A stretch of DNA of 64,000 bases from a virus, in IMG/VR virus record IMGVR_UViG_3300032313_001465, positions 1 to 64,000 of that record, one strand, 5' to 3'. The translations under genes and the position numbers were made by a program. This document shows positions 43,305 to 61,733 of the stretch, one piece after another. The notes beneath the pieces were generated by a model. It made no database searches. It saw only the letters and a program-made list of their open reading frames with translations, and was not told the origin of the DNA. Within the stretch, counting starts at the first letter, position 1. Every line of letters begins with the position of its first letter.

Positions 43305-43382
43305 GGTCAGGTATGGTAGACACAGTAGGGAGAGCCAAAGAGGTATCTACTAAAGTTACAGGTTCGATTCCTGTCCTGACTA
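43305..43382 (+). tRNA. tRNA-like element A (non-canonical)
   Basis: Acceptor GGTCAGG pairs with CCTGACT (43375-43381); T arm ACAGG-TTCGATT-CCTGT (43358-43374) is perfect. The rest does not fold as a normal tRNA: the D arm is not clear and the only middle helix is AGTAG/CTACT with an 18-nt loop. No CCA is encoded. Identity not assigned; it could be degenerate or specially processed. Confidence 0.45.
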
Positions 43383-43490: not shown

Positions 43491-43594
43491 AGTCAGGTGG
43501 TGTAATAGAGGCAACACGTGGTTCGAGTCCACAATCTATCTAGTAACGATAGATGCTGATAGGAGCGATACAGGTTCGATTCCTGTCCTGACTA
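43491..43594 (+). tRNA. tRNA-like element B (non-canonical, Ser- or Tyr-like)
   Basis: Acceptor AGTCAGG/CCTGACT, D arm GTGT-AATAGAGGCA-ACAC and T arm ACAGG-TTCGATT-CCTGT are good. The middle has two hairpins: GTGG-TTCGAGT-CCAC (as anticodon loop it would give CGA, Ser) and ATCTATC-TAGTAAC-GATAGAT (as anticodon loop GTA, Tyr, with A33). 104 nt is longer than normal. The identity is undecided. Confidence 0.5.
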
Positions 43595-45033: not shown

Positions 45034-46107
45034 ATGAAATTATCAACACTGTATTCTAGGTCGGTAAACGGCAAGATAAATACATTTACAATTCACATTG
45101 AAGGAAACAAGTATTATACTGTAACTGGATTTTTAGATGGAGTTAAAACTCAATCCCTCCCAACAGTATGTAATGCCAAAACGTATTGTACTGCTGAAGA
45201 GCAAGCAATAAAAGAGGCCACAGCAATTCATCGAAAGAAAATGGAAAGCGGTTCATTTGAAAATGTTTCCGATATTGATAATGAGACATTTTTTGAACCG
45301 ATGCTCGCTCACGATTTCAATAAGGAAAAGCACAAAATCAAATATCCCCTTTATAGTCAACCGAAACTAGATGGTATCCGTTGTTTGGTGAAACGAGACG
45401 GAATGTGGTCAAGAACAGGCAAACCAATAATTTCAGCCCCACACATATTTGAAGCGTTAAAACCATTATTTGAAATTAATCCAAATCTTATATTTGATGG
45501 AGAGTTATATGCTGATAAATTTGCAACCGACTTTAACGCTATATGTTCCTTAGTAAAGAAAACAAAACCAACTCAGCAAGATTTAGAAGATAGTTCTAAA
45601 GCTATTGAATATCACATTTATGATTTACCAAGTTGTAGTGGTGTGTTTTCTGATAGATATGAAGTATTACTTGAATTAATTTTGCCAAAATGTTGTAAAT
45701 TAGTTGAAACCCGCATTGCTAATAATGAAACTGAACTAATGGCTTATTATGAGAACTATGTTGTTAACAACTATGAAGGACAAATGGTTCGTTTAAATAG
45801 CAAATATGAAAATAAAAGATCAAAGTCCTTACTTAAGCACAAGTCATTTATTGATGAAGAATATACAATTTTAGATATTGAAGAAGGAATTGGGAATAAA
45901 AGTGGGATGGTAGGAGCATTTGTATTTGAAAATAGAGATGGTAAACGCTTTAAAGCTAGTCCTAAATTTAATTGGGAAGAATGTACAAAAATGTGGAATA
46001 CAAAACACCAACTAATCGGAAAAACAGCAACAGTTAAATATTTCAACCTAACTCCAGATCATATACCGAGATTTGGATATGTGATTCAGGTAGATCGTTG
46101 GTATTAG
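45034..46107 (+). CDS. ATP-dependent DNA ligase
   Basis: 357 residues. N-terminal ~80 residues look like a WGR-type domain (YYTVTGFLDG). Catalytic core: SQPKLDGIRCLVK with Lys111 as adenylated residue, FDGELYADKF (motif IIIa), EGQMVRL (motif IV) and LLKHKSFIDEEY (motif V). Seals nicks in replication and repair. Single gene between two promoter copies. Confidence 0.9.
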   Translation: MKLSTLYSRSVNGKINTFTIHIEGNKYYTVTGFLDGVKTQSLPTVCNAKTYCTAEEQAIKEATAIHRKKMESGSFENVSDIDNETFFEPMLAHDFNKEKHKIKYPLYSQPKLDGIRCLVKRDGMWSRTGKPIISAPHIFEALKPLFEINPNLIFDGELYADKFATDFNAICSLVKKTKPTQQDLEDSSKAIEYHIYDLPSCSGVFSDRYEVLLELILPKCCKLVETRIANNETELMAYYENYVVNNYEGQMVRLNSKYENKRSKSLLKHKSFIDEEYTILDIEEGIGNKSGMVGAFVFENRDGKRFKASPKFNWEECTKMWNTKHQLIGKTATVKYFNLTPDHIPRFGYVIQVDRWY

Positions 46108-47538: not shown

Positions 47539-47769
47539 ATGGAAAAGACACAAACAGCAATTGAAAGCCTAATCGAAAAAATACAACCTCTTATTGATAG
47601 AAGCAAAATAAGCGACACTATGCTTTATAGTTTAGTTGAGGAGCATTTAGAAATGGAAAAAGAACAGGTAATAGATGCTTTTGTAGATAGCAGAATTTTA
47701 TCTATTGCTAATAATTGCAGTAGCGGAGAACAATACTACAACGAAACTTATAAACAACAAGATAAATGA
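47539..47769 (+). CDS. QYYNETF-family protein
   Basis: 76 residues: TAIESLIEKIQPLI, HLEMEKEQVIDAF, SGEQYYNETYKQQ. Third tandem copy. Overlaps the phosphoesterase start by 4 nt. Confidence 0.7.
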   Translation: MEKTQTAIESLIEKIQPLIDRSKISDTMLYSLVEEHLEMEKEQVIDAFVDSRILSIANNCSSGEQYYNETYKQQDK

Positions 47770-48500
47770 AAATTTGGCATATAAGCGACACGCACACCTA
47801 CCATGACTTACTACAAGTTCCTGAAGGAATAGATATGGTAATACACTCAGGTGATTGTAGCAATCCTAGAGACCCATACGCTAATGAATCCGAAGTGAGA
47901 TGTTTTTTAACTTGGTTCTATTCATTAAATATCAAGTATAAAATATACGTTGCTGGTAATCATGATTCAAGCATTGAGAAAGGATTGGTTGATAAGCAAA
48001 CCTTTGATGATTTAGGTATAGTGTATCTTGAGAATGATTACGTTATAATTGAAGGTATAAAAATATGGGGTTCGCCATATACACCTACTTTTGGTCATTG
48101 GTGTTTTATGAAAGCAAGAGATAAGATTAGTAGAGTATGGGAGCACATTCCTGACGACACTGATGTTATTATAACACACGGACCACCTAAAGGAATACTC
48201 GACTTTTCGTATAGTATAGATGGTATGTTTGAAAGATGTGGTTGTAGTGCTTTGATGAAAAGAGTAATTAAGGTACAACCTACATTGTGTTTATTTGGTC
48301 ACATCCACAATTGTGAAGACATCATTAATGCAGGTACTGTGAAGCTTTCAAATTACAAGACCATTTTTAGTAATGGAAGTGTGGTTACTGATGGAAAGTT
48401 TGGTAGATTGAGTAGTAACGGAAATATTTTAGAAATAACAACACCATATGTTTCAGATGACTTTCAAATTGGACCTGATGGTGCTTATGAACATATTTAA
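47766..48500 (+). CDS. Calcineurin-like metallophosphoesterase
   Basis: 244 residues. HISDTHTYHD (D-x-H), VIHSGDCSN (G-D), YVAGNHDSS (G-N-H-D), IITHGPPKG and LFGHIHNC (G-H-x-H) give the full metal site. The substrate could be a cyclic nucleotide, a phosphodiester or a protein phosphate; similar phage enzymes blunt nucleotide-signal immunity, but nothing here shows which. Confidence 0.88.
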   Translation: MKIWHISDTHTYHDLLQVPEGIDMVIHSGDCSNPRDPYANESEVRCFLTWFYSLNIKYKIYVAGNHDSSIEKGLVDKQTFDDLGIVYLENDYVIIEGIKIWGSPYTPTFGHWCFMKARDKISRVWEHIPDDTDVIITHGPPKGILDFSYSIDGMFERCGCSALMKRVIKVQPTLCLFGHIHNCEDIINAGTVKLSNYKTIFSNGSVVTDGKFGRLSSNGNILEITTPYVSDDFQIGPDGAYEHI

Positions 48501-49594: not shown

Positions 49595-49650
49595 GTCATG
49601 TAAATGTCATGCGAAAAATTTGGTAATTCCATATTTTATTCGTATATTGA
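49595..49650 (+). promoter_or_regulatory. GTCAT-type promoter, copy 6
   Basis: GTCAT 49595 and 49606, TTTGG 49619-49623, TATATTGA 49643-49650. Gene start at 49673. Confidence 0.85.
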
Positions 49651-49672
49651 TGAATAATAAAAACGTAGAAAT

Positions 49673-50285: not shown

Positions 50286-51605
50286 ATGTTAAATAATCAA
50301 TCAGAGAACCCAAACTATAGAGCTAAAATAGTTCAACTAAGTAATGGTAAGAAACACAGTAATGCAGACAAATTAATGTGTTGGAATATAGATTTCCAAA
50401 ACGTTATCACCAATCTCGACTATAAGGATGGTGATGTAGTAGTCTACTTTCCTGTAGAGTGTACTATAAACAAGGATTTAATCAGTTATATTGATGGATT
50501 TGAGGACACAACTAAAAACAATAACCCTGAATATAAAGGATTTTTCAATAAACATGCTAGAGTTAGAGCCATTTCATTAAGGGGAGAAAAATCTCAAGGG
50601 TTTGTTTTAAAATCATCCATATTTGAAAATTGGTTGAAACTTGATCTCACAACAATGTATGACTATATTGGTCAAGAGTTTGATAGTGTTATGATAGGAC
50701 ATAACAATATTTCTATTTGTAGAAAATATGTTCCTGTTACACAATCTAAAGGTACTCAACCAAATAAAGGAAAACAACCAGTTTCTAGAATATCTAGATT
50801 AGTAGAAAATCAGTTTAGATTACACAACGATACTTCTAACTTGAGGAAAAATATTGATAAAATATATCCAGACGATATCATTAGTATACATTATAAGAAA
50901 CATGGTACTTCATTTGTAGTTGGAAATGTTTTGTGTAATAGGAAGCTAACATGGTATGAAAAACTAATTAAAAAACTGGGAATCAACGTTTCATCTACTG
51001 AGTACGATATCATATATTCTTCAAGAAGAGTTGTTAAAAACCAGTATGAAACTAGAGGTGCCACTTCATATTATGAGGAAGATATTTGGGGAATTGTTAA
51101 AGAGGAAATTAAAGACAAAATACCTAAAGGAATTACTTTATATGGTGAAATTGTTGGATTTTTACCAAATGGTGGTGAAATTCAAAAGGGTTATGATTAT
51201 GGGTGTAAACCAAATGAACATAATACCTATATTTACAGAATAACTTTTACTAACGAAAATGGTGATGTGTTTGAATTCACAGATAAACAAATTGAGGAAT
51301 TTTGTAAAAAGTATGATTTGTTGTATAGCGATACATTCTTTTATTATGGAAAAGCTAGACATTATTATAATGATATGATAATAGATTTACAATCTTGGAG
51401 AGAAGGTCTTTTAAGATATTTAGAAAAACAATACAACGAAAAAGATTGCTCGATGTGTACCAATAAAGTACCAGAAGAAGGTATTATCGTTAGAGTAGAA
51501 AAGCTATACGAATATGAAGCATATAAATTAAAAAGTGCTAGATTCTTGGAATGGGAAACAAAACAACTAGATTCAGAAGAAACAAATATTGAAGACAATG
51601 CCTAA
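50286..51605 (+). CDS. RNA ligase (Rnl2/Rnl5-like)
   Basis: 439 residues. N-terminal OB-like part (about 10-120; VQLSNGKKHSNADKLMCWNI), as in Deinococcus-type Rnl5. Nucleotidyltransferase motifs: IHYKKHGTSFVVG with Lys204 as the likely nucleophile, GITLYGEIVGF (IIIa), EEGIIVRVE (IV) and YKLKSARFLEWE (V). Seals RNA nicks. Its end overlaps the kinase start by 8 nt, and a phosphoesterase follows. Confidence 0.85.
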   Translation: MLNNQSENPNYRAKIVQLSNGKKHSNADKLMCWNIDFQNVITNLDYKDGDVVVYFPVECTINKDLISYIDGFEDTTKNNNPEYKGFFNKHARVRAISLRGEKSQGFVLKSSIFENWLKLDLTTMYDYIGQEFDSVMIGHNNISICRKYVPVTQSKGTQPNKGKQPVSRISRLVENQFRLHNDTSNLRKNIDKIYPDDIISIHYKKHGTSFVVGNVLCNRKLTWYEKLIKKLGINVSSTEYDIIYSSRRVVKNQYETRGATSYYEEDIWGIVKEEIKDKIPKGITLYGEIVGFLPNGGEIQKGYDYGCKPNEHNTYIYRITFTNENGDVFEFTDKQIEEFCKKYDLLYSDTFFYYGKARHYYNDMIIDLQSWREGLLRYLEKQYNEKDCSMCTNKVPEEGIIVRVEKLYEYEAYKLKSARFLEWETKQLDSEETNIEDNA

Positions 51606-52023
51606 ATGCTATATTTTAATTGGAATGCCCACAAGCGGAAAATCAACTTGGGCTAAAAAACAAGGATTGCCTATCATATCATGTGATGAGATAAGAAAAG
51701 AATTTGGAACTAATTACGATCCCGAACAGGAAAAAATGGTTTGGGATTGTTTTTATAAAAGATTACCTTTGTTTACAAAAAGTTTTATTGTTGATAACAC
51801 AAACAGTAAATCAGGTTATATTAATAAAATTAAAGAATGCTTAGGTAAAGACTTCGAAATTGAATACGTTTGGTTTGATATTCCACTATGGAAAGCATAT
51901 TATAGAAATGTAGTTAGGTATCTTATTCAAGGTAAGTGGATTCCATTTAAAGTATTAGATAGTATGTATAACAATTACAATAAATTAAAAAATCACAATG
52001 AAAAAGGTAAAACTTTTTGGTAA
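51598..52023 (+). CDS. Polynucleotide 5'-kinase-like P-loop protein
   Basis: 141 residues from ATG 51598 (an upstream TTG is less likely). Walker A GMPTSGKST at 9-17, CDEIRKEFG and VDNTNSKSGYINKI, as in the kinase domain of phage and bacterial Pnkp. Predicted to phosphorylate 5'-OH RNA ends. No phosphatase domain is attached, but the next gene encodes one. Confidence 0.82.
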   Translation: MPKCYILIGMPTSGKSTWAKKQGLPIISCDEIRKEFGTNYDPEQEKMVWDCFYKRLPLFTKSFIVDNTNSKSGYINKIKECLGKDFEIEYVWFDIPLWKAYYRNVVRYLIQGKWIPFKVLDSMYNNYNKLKNHNEKGKTFW

Positions 52024-52603
52024 AAGTATAGGAGAATTTTCTGATGTATTCTTCTCTTCGGACCTGCACATAAATCATGAGCGAGTTATCACATTCGGTA
52101 GGAATTTTGAGAATGTTGAAGTAATGAATGATTATGTTATAGATGAGATTAATCGATTGTGTGATGCTGATTCATTATTAGTGCTTTTAGGAGATACTTT
52201 AATGATAGACAAAAATTATAACTCATTCATCTCTAAATTACAATGTAACTTAATTATGTTATATGGTAACCATTGTAACAGAAACAGATTCAACGAAGTT
52301 ACTGGAGAATGTTCTAACCGATTACTATATCATGGTGATTATTGTGAATTAGCAGTTGATAAACAAATATTTTGCTGCAGTCATTATCCTATGATGCATT
52401 GGAATTATCAAGATGAGGGTAGCATTAGTTTGCATGGACACACTCACGCATTTGAAAGTGATATTTTATATCAAATACATAAATACAAGTCACTTGATGT
52501 TGGAATTGATTCGTTTTATCAAAAATATGGGGTGTATTCGATATTTTCCTATTCAAACATAGTTGCTTACCTTAACAGCAATAAAACAGCAGACAGACAT
52601 TAA
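51998..52603 (+). CDS. Metallophosphoesterase of the RNA-repair operon
   Basis: 201 residues. FFSSDLHINHERVI (D22, H24), LLGDTLM, MLYGNHCNR, CCSHYPMMHW and LHGHTHAF are the calcineurin-type metal motifs. Bacterial Pnkp uses such a domain to remove 2',3'-cyclic or 3'-phosphates before ligation. Overlaps the kinase by 26 nt. Confidence 0.85.
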   Translation: MKKVKLFGKSIGEFSDVFFSSDLHINHERVITFGRNFENVEVMNDYVIDEINRLCDADSLLVLLGDTLMIDKNYNSFISKLQCNLIMLYGNHCNRNRFNEVTGECSNRLLYHGDYCELAVDKQIFCCSHYPMMHWNYQDEGSISLHGHTHAFESDILYQIHKYKSLDVGIDSFYQKYGVYSIFSYSNIVAYLNSNKTADRH

Positions 52604-53460: not shown

Positions 53461-54657
53461 ATGAATAAACTAGATAAACAATACACAGACCTACTTCAAG
53501 ACATCTTAGATAATGGAGTAAAGAAACAAACCAGAAATGGAGAAGTGCTATCAGTATTTGGAAGACAAATACGTCATAAAATGAGTGATGGGTTTCCTTT
53601 ACTCACAACTAAAAAGATGGCTTGGAAACAAATCGTAACTGAGTTGATATGGTTCTTACGTGGTGATACAAATATCAAGTATTTGGTTGATAACGATTGT
53701 CATATTTGGGATGGTGATGCTTATAAAAAGTTTACAAAAACTTATGAAAGTATAGATGGTGAGATTACACTACCTCCAGATGACTATATCAATGATGGTG
53801 GTGAGTTACTATCACAAGAAGAATTCATTAACAAAATCAAAACAGATGATGAGTTTGCTAGACAGTGGGGTGATTTAGGACCAATCTACGGTAAGCAATG
53901 GAGAAGATGGACTAAAAAGAAAATGTATCTATCAACCGATGGTTCATATGAGAACATCTATGATGAAGCTGACCAAACGGTTGTTGACCAAATATCAATC
54001 CTAATCAACGACCTTAAAACAAATCCTGATTCAAGACGATTAATGGTTAATGCTTGGAATGTAGGTGAATTAAGTCAAATGACTCTACCGCCTTGTCATT
54101 ATGGATTTCAAGTTTATACAAGAGAGTTGAGTGATGATGAACAGAGAGCTAGATGTCATCCTACAACACCTAACGCATGGGACGACTTAAAAGAGTTTGC
54201 TCGACTGACGGGTAATAGCGTTGAAGAAGCAGCAAAGGCAGTAAGAATATCAACCAGAGCAATCTCATTAATGTGGAATCAACGTTCAGTAGATACATTC
54301 TTAGGTTTACCATTCAACATAGCATCTTATGGATTGCTACTTGAAATAATCGCCAAGGCAGTTAATATGGTTCCAGATGAGCTTATTGGAAATTTAGGTG
54401 ATGTACATTTATATTCAAATCATGTTGAACAAGCTAAAGAACAAATTGGTAGAGAACCATATGGATTACCTAAATTGAACATCAACACAGAGTTTTGGCG
54501 TTATGAAGGTGGTGAGTGTGGTGAAGGACCTTTAGATGCAGCGGCTATTTTTGAATCATTTAAAAATGATGACTTTTGTAGATGCTTATTAGAAGAAGAC
54601 ATACAATTAGGTGATTATCAATCACATCCAACAATTAAAGCACCACTATCAAATTAA
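53461..54657 (+). CDS. thyA: Thymidylate synthase ThyA with extra segments
   Basis: 398 residues against about 264 for E. coli ThyA. All key motifs are present: FPLLTTKKMAWKQIVTELIWFLRGDTN (in parts), GPIYGKQWRRW, DSRRLMVNAWNV, LPPCHYGFQVY (Cys212), NQRSVDTFLGLPFNIASYG and HLYSNHVEQ. Two additions stand out: about residues 89-132 and 221-265; the second carries RARCHPTTPNAWDD and a helical stretch. Makes dTMP from dUMP. Confidence 0.92.
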   Translation: MNKLDKQYTDLLQDILDNGVKKQTRNGEVLSVFGRQIRHKMSDGFPLLTTKKMAWKQIVTELIWFLRGDTNIKYLVDNDCHIWDGDAYKKFTKTYESIDGEITLPPDDYINDGGELLSQEEFINKIKTDDEFARQWGDLGPIYGKQWRRWTKKKMYLSTDGSYENIYDEADQTVVDQISILINDLKTNPDSRRLMVNAWNVGELSQMTLPPCHYGFQVYTRELSDDEQRARCHPTTPNAWDDLKEFARLTGNSVEEAAKAVRISTRAISLMWNQRSVDTFLGLPFNIASYGLLLEIIAKAVNMVPDELIGNLGDVHLYSNHVEQAKEQIGREPYGLPKLNINTEFWRYEGGECGEGPLDAAAIFESFKNDDFCRCLLEEDIQLGDYQSHPTIKAPLSN

Positions 54658-55125: not shown

Positions 55126-55181
55126 GTCATATAAACGTCATATAAAGCGGTTGGCCTTCATGCAAATCGGTCGTATATTGA
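55126..55181 (+). promoter_or_regulatory. GTCAT-type promoter, copy 7
   Basis: GTCAT 55126 and 55137, TTGG 55151, TATATTGA 55174-55181; gene start 55205. Confidence 0.85.
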
Positions 55182-60915: not shown

Positions 60916-61386
60916 ATGTTTAAAGAAAGTAAAAAAATGGGTGAAGCAGTAAGAGCAGGTTCAGAACGTAGAGGTAGACCAGTTAAATCTGATAGTGCCC
61001 GTCAAATGAGATTAAATAAATTTGCTGAGTTAAAAGCAAATGGTATAGTAGTTAAAAGAGGTAGACCAGCTAAAGTAGTGGATCCAAATGCCCCGGTAAT
61101 TGTTAAAACACCTAAGGTTAAGGTACCTAAAGAACCTAAGGCGAAAAAAGCGAAATCAAGCGAGGTAAAAACGGAACCAACAGTTGTGTTGAGTGAGGGT
61201 GTAAACCATAAGACCGTTTCTCATCCAACAGGTAAACCAGTTACTTATATCCGTTCTCCTTATATAGTACAAGCAGCTGGTAAAGGATTTGAGGACGTAG
61301 CTCAAGACGGTGAATTAGAAATTGAAGATATCATTGTGGATGAGTTCGTTCCAAATGAAGATGATATTGCTGAATTAGAAGCATAG
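60916..61386 (+). CDS. AT-hook DNA-binding protein
   Basis: 156 residues. Two AT-hook cores (RRGRPVK at about 18-24; KRGRPAK at about 47-53), a third basic run (VKVPKEPKAKKAK) and an acidic tail. AT-hooks bind the minor groove of AT-rich DNA, fitting this genome. Could organise phage DNA or act on host transcription. Confidence 0.75.
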   Translation: MFKESKKMGEAVRAGSERRGRPVKSDSARQMRLNKFAELKANGIVVKRGRPAKVVDPNAPVIVKTPKVKVPKEPKAKKAKSSEVKTEPTVVLSEGVNHKTVSHPTGKPVTYIRSPYIVQAAGKGFEDVAQDGELEIEDIIVDEFVPNEDDIAELEA

Positions 61387-61465
61387 TATTGCTGAGAGAT
61401 AAAGAAGTAAATATATGGAAGAAGTGAGGTTAAGTCCCAACATAGTACATTAATGCTCAGTAATA
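61386..61465 (+). other. Inverted repeat with tRNA-sized spacing
   Basis: TATTGCTGAG (61386-61395) pairs with CTCAGTAATA (61456-61465) over 10 bp with one G:T. The 60 nt between hold GGTTAAGTCC, similar to a T-loop. Ends 8 nt before tRNA-Tyr. May be a structured leader or a worn tRNA. Confidence 0.4.
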
Positions 61466-61473
61466 AAATATAT

Positions 61474-61570
61474 AGTCAGGTGGCGCAATTGGTAGACGTT
61501 GTTCCTCTGTACAAGGAATGTAAAACGAGGTGATCCTCGTAGTATACAGGTTCAAATCCTGTCCTGACTA
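61474..61570 (+). tRNA. tRNA-Tyr (GTA)
   Basis: Acceptor AGTCAGG/CCTGACT with discriminator A; D region GCGCAATTGGTAGACG; anticodon arm TTCCT-CTGTACA-AGGAA giving GTA; long variable arm ACGAGG-TGAT-CCTCGT, expected for class II tRNA-Tyr; T arm ACAGG-TTCAAAT-CCTGT. No CCA encoded. Confidence 0.85.
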
Positions 61571-61604
61571 CAATTGTTGTGTTATTTTTAGTAATAAAAT
61601 ATAT

Positions 61605-61733
61605 AGTCAGGTGGCGAGTTGGAACACGCACCGAAACATTGACGTAAAAACTTTCTGACAGAAGTACAACGGAGTATCTGCTTTATCAATGTGCTGATGG
61701 ATACTATCACAGGTTCAAGTCCTGTCCTGACTA
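61605..61733 (+). tRNA. tRNA-like element D (expanded middle)
   Basis: Acceptor AGTCAGG/CCTGACT, D arm GCG-AGTTGGAACA-CGC and T arm ACAGG-TTCAAGT-CCTGT are intact. The middle is about 80 nt, instead of 20-40, and holds a 7-bp helix ACATTGA (61637-61643) / TCAATGT. A stretch GCTGATGGA before the T arm resembles one in element B. An intron or an untypical RNA is possible; identity is not assigned. Confidence 0.5.

Follow-up and report, generated by a model that had tools for sequence, protein, structure and literature searches.

The pairing of Pnkp with Rnl1 in phage T4 is the textbook case of tRNA repair. The locus described here resembles it in that a phage encodes a 5'-kinase of the same family together with a separate ATP-dependent RNA ligase, yet this kinase is without the HAD domain, a metallophosphoesterase (MPE) is encoded by the next gene, and the ligase is Rnl5-like rather than Rnl1. 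As in Clostridium thermocellum Pnkp, a kinase, a phosphatase of the MPE superfamily and a ligase are found together (as predicted activities), but as three genes of other families instead of a single chain. Cluster L mycobacteriophages (e.g. LeBron gp85, gp74) likewise encode a related RNA ligase with a polynucleotide kinase; however, in the loci that we examined the kinase is HAD-fused and lies several kb from the ligase, and no MPE was found within 6 kb. The general idea of an MPE in phage RNA repair is already in print as a prediction: Iyer et al. (2021, PMC7824862) assign such a role to the calcineurin-like phosphatases of a few jumbo phages. The functional idea is the same as ours, yet the sections of that article covered here describe neither an overlapping ligase-kinase-MPE trio nor a repeated replacement of HAD by MPE. 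In the literature examined, outside which lies the RNA-repair survey of Burroughs and Aravind (2016), a likely earlier source, we found neither the trio with its overlaps nor its repeated origin by replacement of HAD.

The window (the whole 64,000-nucleotide stretch analysed, from an IMG/VR virus contig of 148,581 bases) carries on its + strand an ATP-dependent RNA ligase of Rnl5 type (50286..51605, 439 aa, phrog_968), a 5'-polynucleotide kinase domain of T4 Pnkp type (51598..52023, 141 aa, phrog_505) and a calcineurin-type MPE (51998..52603, 201 aa, phrog_547), for which we propose, from its gene context, the role of 3'-phosphatase or 2',3'-cyclic phosphodiesterase. An earlier note had described three overlapping genes here, and the reading frames lie where it placed them, with the 8- and 26-nt overlaps that it gave: the kinase ATG at 51598 overlaps the ligase stop (8 nt, ATGCCTAA), and kinase and MPE share 26 nt. 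Its readings of the single genes are borne out as well, namely the ligase lysine in a K-x-H-G motif (KKHG, residue 204), the GMPTSGKST motif of the kinase (present, and accompanied by matches to phrog_505 and Pfam AAA_33) and the third gene as a calcineurin-type phosphoesterase (from its phrog_547 match, its motifs and the match of its modelled fold to 1xm7). The three predicted activities, the operon-like overlap of the genes and the RNA-repair role that was suggested are thus supported. Because the gene order is identical in unrelated virus contigs, the trio is not a product of chance; it is real and conserved, and a three-gene operon for the repair of RNA ends is the best explanation of it. 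PADLOC returned nothing relevant to the trio.

The ligase matches the RNA ligases of phrog_968 (E 2.5e-50), and a six-sequence ligase profile matched the OB fold of Naegleria NgrRnl (E 2e-5). A model built with 33 relatives (pLDDT 87) aligned with NgrRnl over 306 residues (residues 7-427; Z 26.5, rmsd 2.6); T4 Rnl2 followed as the next family (Z 15.4), and for functionally characterised DNA ligases Z was about 11 or below. Given these profile and model matches, and the invariance of the catalytic residues K204, E288, E398, K414 and K416 in an alignment of 34 sequences, we regard the ligase as Rnl5-like; the N-terminal OB fold and nucleotidyltransferase domain by which Rnl5 ligases are recognised are both present. 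It shares these domains and the KxHG lysine with NgrRnl and Deinococcus DRB0094, and its chain ends, like those of Rnl5 ligases, soon after motif V. Unlike NgrRnl, with which it has only 18% identity, it is some 100 residues longer, with inserts, and carries a CxxC motif (C388, C391) that is kept in its near relatives. Its sequence suggests that it is related to DRB0094, yet outside the equivalog subfamily of NCBIfam TIGR02306 (RNA_lig_DRB0094), against which it scored 34 bits, below the cut-off of 151. Relatives occur in Synechococcus phage B23, Desulfovibrio phage 7757, Lak phages and many mycobacteriophages. Rnl5-type enzymes are known for the sealing of nicks, not of loops. The title of structure entry 5cot describes NgrRnl as a nick-sealing RNA ligase.

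That the trio mends DNA rather than RNA ends is a reading that could draw on the general knowledge that kinases of T4 type accept both nucleic acids in vitro. However, the fold and profile of the ligase are those of RNA ligases, far from the scores of DNA ligases given above, the phage encodes a separate DNA ligase of its own (45034-46107), and nucleotidyltransferases of RNA repair lie near related trios, so that we consider a DNA substrate very unlikely.

The kinase matches the polynucleotide kinases of phrog_505 (E 4e-16) and Pfam AAA_33 (E 1.8e-8), and across 12 kinases of the family G9, G14, K15, D30, D66 and R103 are invariant and R33 nearly so, corresponding to the P-loop and the catalytic Asp and Arg of Pnkp. 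The profile of these 12 members reached 6e-40 against Pnkp1 (4xrp) and 1e-38 against T4 Pnkp, the inclusion of HAD-fused members inflating the full-length T4 scores; against the T4 kinase domain alone (1ly1), a comparison independent of those members, it reached 1.7e-27, and against 4gp6 and 4jst, which we take to be C. thermocellum Pnkp kinase structures, about 1e-16. With a profile made from C-terminal parts only, no match to the C-terminal HAD 3'-phosphatase domain was found in the window segment searched, and the kinase chain terminates where that domain would start.

The third protein matches the phosphoesterases of phrog_547 (E 1.4e-34); the Pfam Metallophos models alone gave no match to it. 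Its AlphaFold model (pLDDT 83) lies nearest to 1xm7 from Aquifex (Z 16.7), a solved structure of unknown function, followed by LpxH and an archaeal phosphodiesterase (near 11), and the family profile matched 1xm7 at 1e-25. The motifs SDLHxxH, GD, GNH(C), GHTH and DVGID are present, with GNHC where all other trio MPEs have GNHD; judged by motifs and modelled fold, the protein belongs to the calcineurin-like metallophosphoesterase superfamily as a GNHC variant. C. thermocellum Pnkp was absent among the structural matches of the model, although we know of no solved structure for its phosphatase domain.

The earlier note had read the trio as a Pnkp split over three genes, with a phosphatase of bacterial rather than T4 type. 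The first statement stands as an analogy, three activities being predicted, and the second at the level of the superfamily; as statements of descent both give way, the ligase being NgrRnl-like, the kinase T4-type and the MPE nearest to 1xm7. A bacterial three-module Pnkp divided into genes by common descent would indeed account for the same three activities and for an MPE-superfamily phosphatase such as that of C. thermocellum Pnkp, but it is extremely improbable given the affinity of the ligase, the much better scores of the kinase profile against T4 Pnkp and Pnkp1 than against the C. thermocellum domain, and the fact that none of the proteins of the trio matches NCBIfam TIGR04075 (bacterial Pnkp).

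Relatives were sought by ligase and kinase, not by phosphoesterase, and consequently the third gene was scored independently of the search; single-sequence scans of viral contigs with the ligase or the MPE found no relatives, and alignments were needed. The earlier note had proposed looking for the trio in other phages, and the order ligase, kinase, MPE does recur in other virus loci. It is found at loci L113, L033, L025, L048, L115 and L117, and at L111 another OB-fold RNA ligase is followed by kinase, RlaP and phosphoesterase. The 8-nt overlap of ligase and kinase is common to L113 and L033, and also occurs at L016 and L061. On a kinase tree (61 dereplicated sequences), each of the eight members of the window's clade has an MPE within 1.4 kb of the kinase, and two further lineages that combine a HAD-less kinase with a nearby MPE (L020/L021 and L066) are nested among kinase-HAD fusions. 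The MPE-neighbour label changes three times over this tree, against a mean of 10.3 for shuffled labels, and none of 500 shuffles came as low. Among kinases adjoining a ligase, an MPE lies within 1.5 kb of 11 of 18 HAD-less kinases but of only one of 18 HAD-bearing ones (Fisher p 0.0005), a test that counts related loci as independent, so that the tree label count is the safer figure. A second kind of Pnkp split is seen on another branch, where kinase and HAD are adjacent, often overlapping, separate genes (L121, L128, L131, L134, L135, L139 and relatives). With fused HAD, separate HAD and MPE all found beside kinases, the phosphatase partner appears to be exchangeable. In Pseudomonas phage PAK_P2 (L100) a kinase-like ATPase is accompanied, within 3 kb, by an MPE and a ligase of Rnl1 type, but this locus was left uncounted because its kinase is on a very long branch.

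In the trio, the MPE probably stands in for the HAD 3'-phosphatase, an activity predicted from gene context. The family as a whole is not a dedicated HAD substitute everywhere, since phrog_547 MPEs match 1329 phage records and are common in phages without this ligase, and since at least six ligase-bearing records contain such an MPE as well as a kinase-HAD fusion. Both facts would also suit an arrangement in which ligase and kinase repair RNA and the MPE merely shares their operon, acting on small nucleotides or signals (e.g. a cyclic nucleotide or a nucleotide monophosphate), as would a nearest structure of unknown function with LpxH and an archaeal phosphodiesterase next in line. The adjacency of an MPE to every kinase of the window's clade and the two additional HAD-less pairings speak against this arrangement, which we think unlikely. 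Opinion is evenly balanced on a broader version of the substitution, under which the 1xm7-type MPE of phrog_547 would be an RNA 3'-end healer that on at least three separate occasions replaced the HAD of T4-type Pnkp, and phages would assemble a bacterial-Pnkp-like kit convergently, from unrelated parts.

A second metallophosphoesterase (47766..48500, + strand, 244 aa; Pfam Metallophos 1.3e-12) is encoded 2 kb upstream of the trio and is a possible accessory. Genes that match the profile built from it follow the trio directly in L048, and in L028, L052, L062 and L072 they begin the search region's last 0.5 kb past the ligase. Separately, at G048 (the L089 record) a phosphoesterase match at 61022-61573 lies inside a 492-aa open frame, perhaps a fusion.

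Families, folds, catalytic residues, recurring gene order and the repeated pairing of a HAD-less kinase with an MPE are shown here, and we consider it probable that a phage RNA end-healing-and-sealing operon is their best explanation. In such a pathway, cleavage by a metal-independent nuclease would leave the RNA with a 5'-OH on one side of the cut and a 2',3'-cyclic or 3'-phosphate on the other; the kinase would phosphorylate the 5'-OH end and the MPE would convert the 3' end to 3'-OH, 3'-end clearing being the role of the HAD domain fused to the same-family kinase in T4 and many relatives. The Rnl5-type ligase would self-adenylate on K204 and join the 3'-OH to the 5'-phosphate, most likely at a nick within folded RNA, for instance a tRNA. 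Under this scheme all three proteins would act on one RNA; the chemistry ascribed to the MPE, tRNA as the target and attack by a host nuclease as the cause are its presumed elements, and damage by anticodon nucleases is a plausible substrate.

A tRNA target is supported in relatives by the genes near their trios, with RlaP (PF10127) within 6 kb of the trio-type loci L111, L115 and L117 and the head domain of CCA-adding enzymes (PF01743) within 6 kb of L115 and L117, since both accompany RNA ligases in jumbo phages according to the sections consulted of PMC7824862. Additionally, in a fecal phage (L002) the ligase, a CCA-adding enzyme and a kinase-HAD protein all lie within 5 kb. Neither RlaP nor a CCA-adding enzyme was found in the window's own record, which may be a fragment. 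If the proposed pathway is correct, it would provide a large, uncharacterised family of phage phosphoesterases (phrog_547) with a function that experiments can address, and would imply that RNA repair in phages is built from interchangeable healing modules; the trio may also flag phages resistant to tRNA-cleaving host defences.

Hypervariable tRNA-like elements are situated on both sides of the trio (43305-43382, 43491-43594, 61474-61570 and 61605-61733), at distances of 7-10 kb and thus not adjacent to it, and a further one (63962-64084) is similar to them in layout only. They possess a constant acceptor stem (AGTCAGG...CCTGACTA), a constant T arm and a mostly constant D-arm-like part around unrelated middles, with total lengths of about 70 to 190 nt; across a set of 150 distinct sequences the information in the middle is near zero. 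The exact 24-mer of their 3' end occurs in at least 120 viral contig stretches, with up to six copies per stretch among the matches listed. An anticodon arm follows the D arm in 3 of 83 elements, against 4 expected, which is chance level; odd Pyl calls by ARAGORN on two elements (with 4- and 14-nt introns) raised the idea of anticodon-loop introns, which was dropped given this family-wide frequency. Literature searches found no paper matching these elements, which are a separate and widespread phage family and may be a scaffold of tRNA type for variable RNAs.

The suggestion that such genes are linked targets or decoys of the trio is not supported by comparison across records: the 3' part of the elements (allowing up to two mismatches) was found in none of 50 ligase-bearing records, and a full-length ligase of the window's family in none of 50 element-bearing records, in which there were seven partial, weak profile matches. 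A trio that acts on the tRNA-like genes of the same phage, processing or protecting them as targets, decoys or spliced precursors, would fit their joint presence in the window, the long inserts of the elements and their lack of an anticodon arm, but in view of these two counts it is hardly credible, and the two look like independent features.

The trio may be transcribed from a promoter of the phage's own, to judge from a promoter-like 20-mer (TTCGTATATTGATGAATAAT, 49639..49658, + strand) that begins the unit to which the trio belongs, its first gene following after 15 nt. The 20-mer TTYGTATATTGATGTATAAT, with up to three mismatches, has 12 copies in the window against 0.11 expected from shuffles; 11 are on the + strand (42014, 44999, 46158, 49639, 55170, 58854, 59739, 60266, 60569, 60871 and 62635), several of them 15-20 nt before ATG codons, and it is likely to be such a promoter. 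The twelfth (24430, - strand), with three mismatches, is probably due to chance. The copy at 49639 and the next one downstream at 55170 bracket a unit that would hold the trio along with thymidylate synthase and further genes, all presumably co-transcribed. The thymidylate synthase (53461-54657, 398 aa) has its Pfam match of 265 positions spread over residues 6-397, and hence contains roughly 130 residues of extra sequence.
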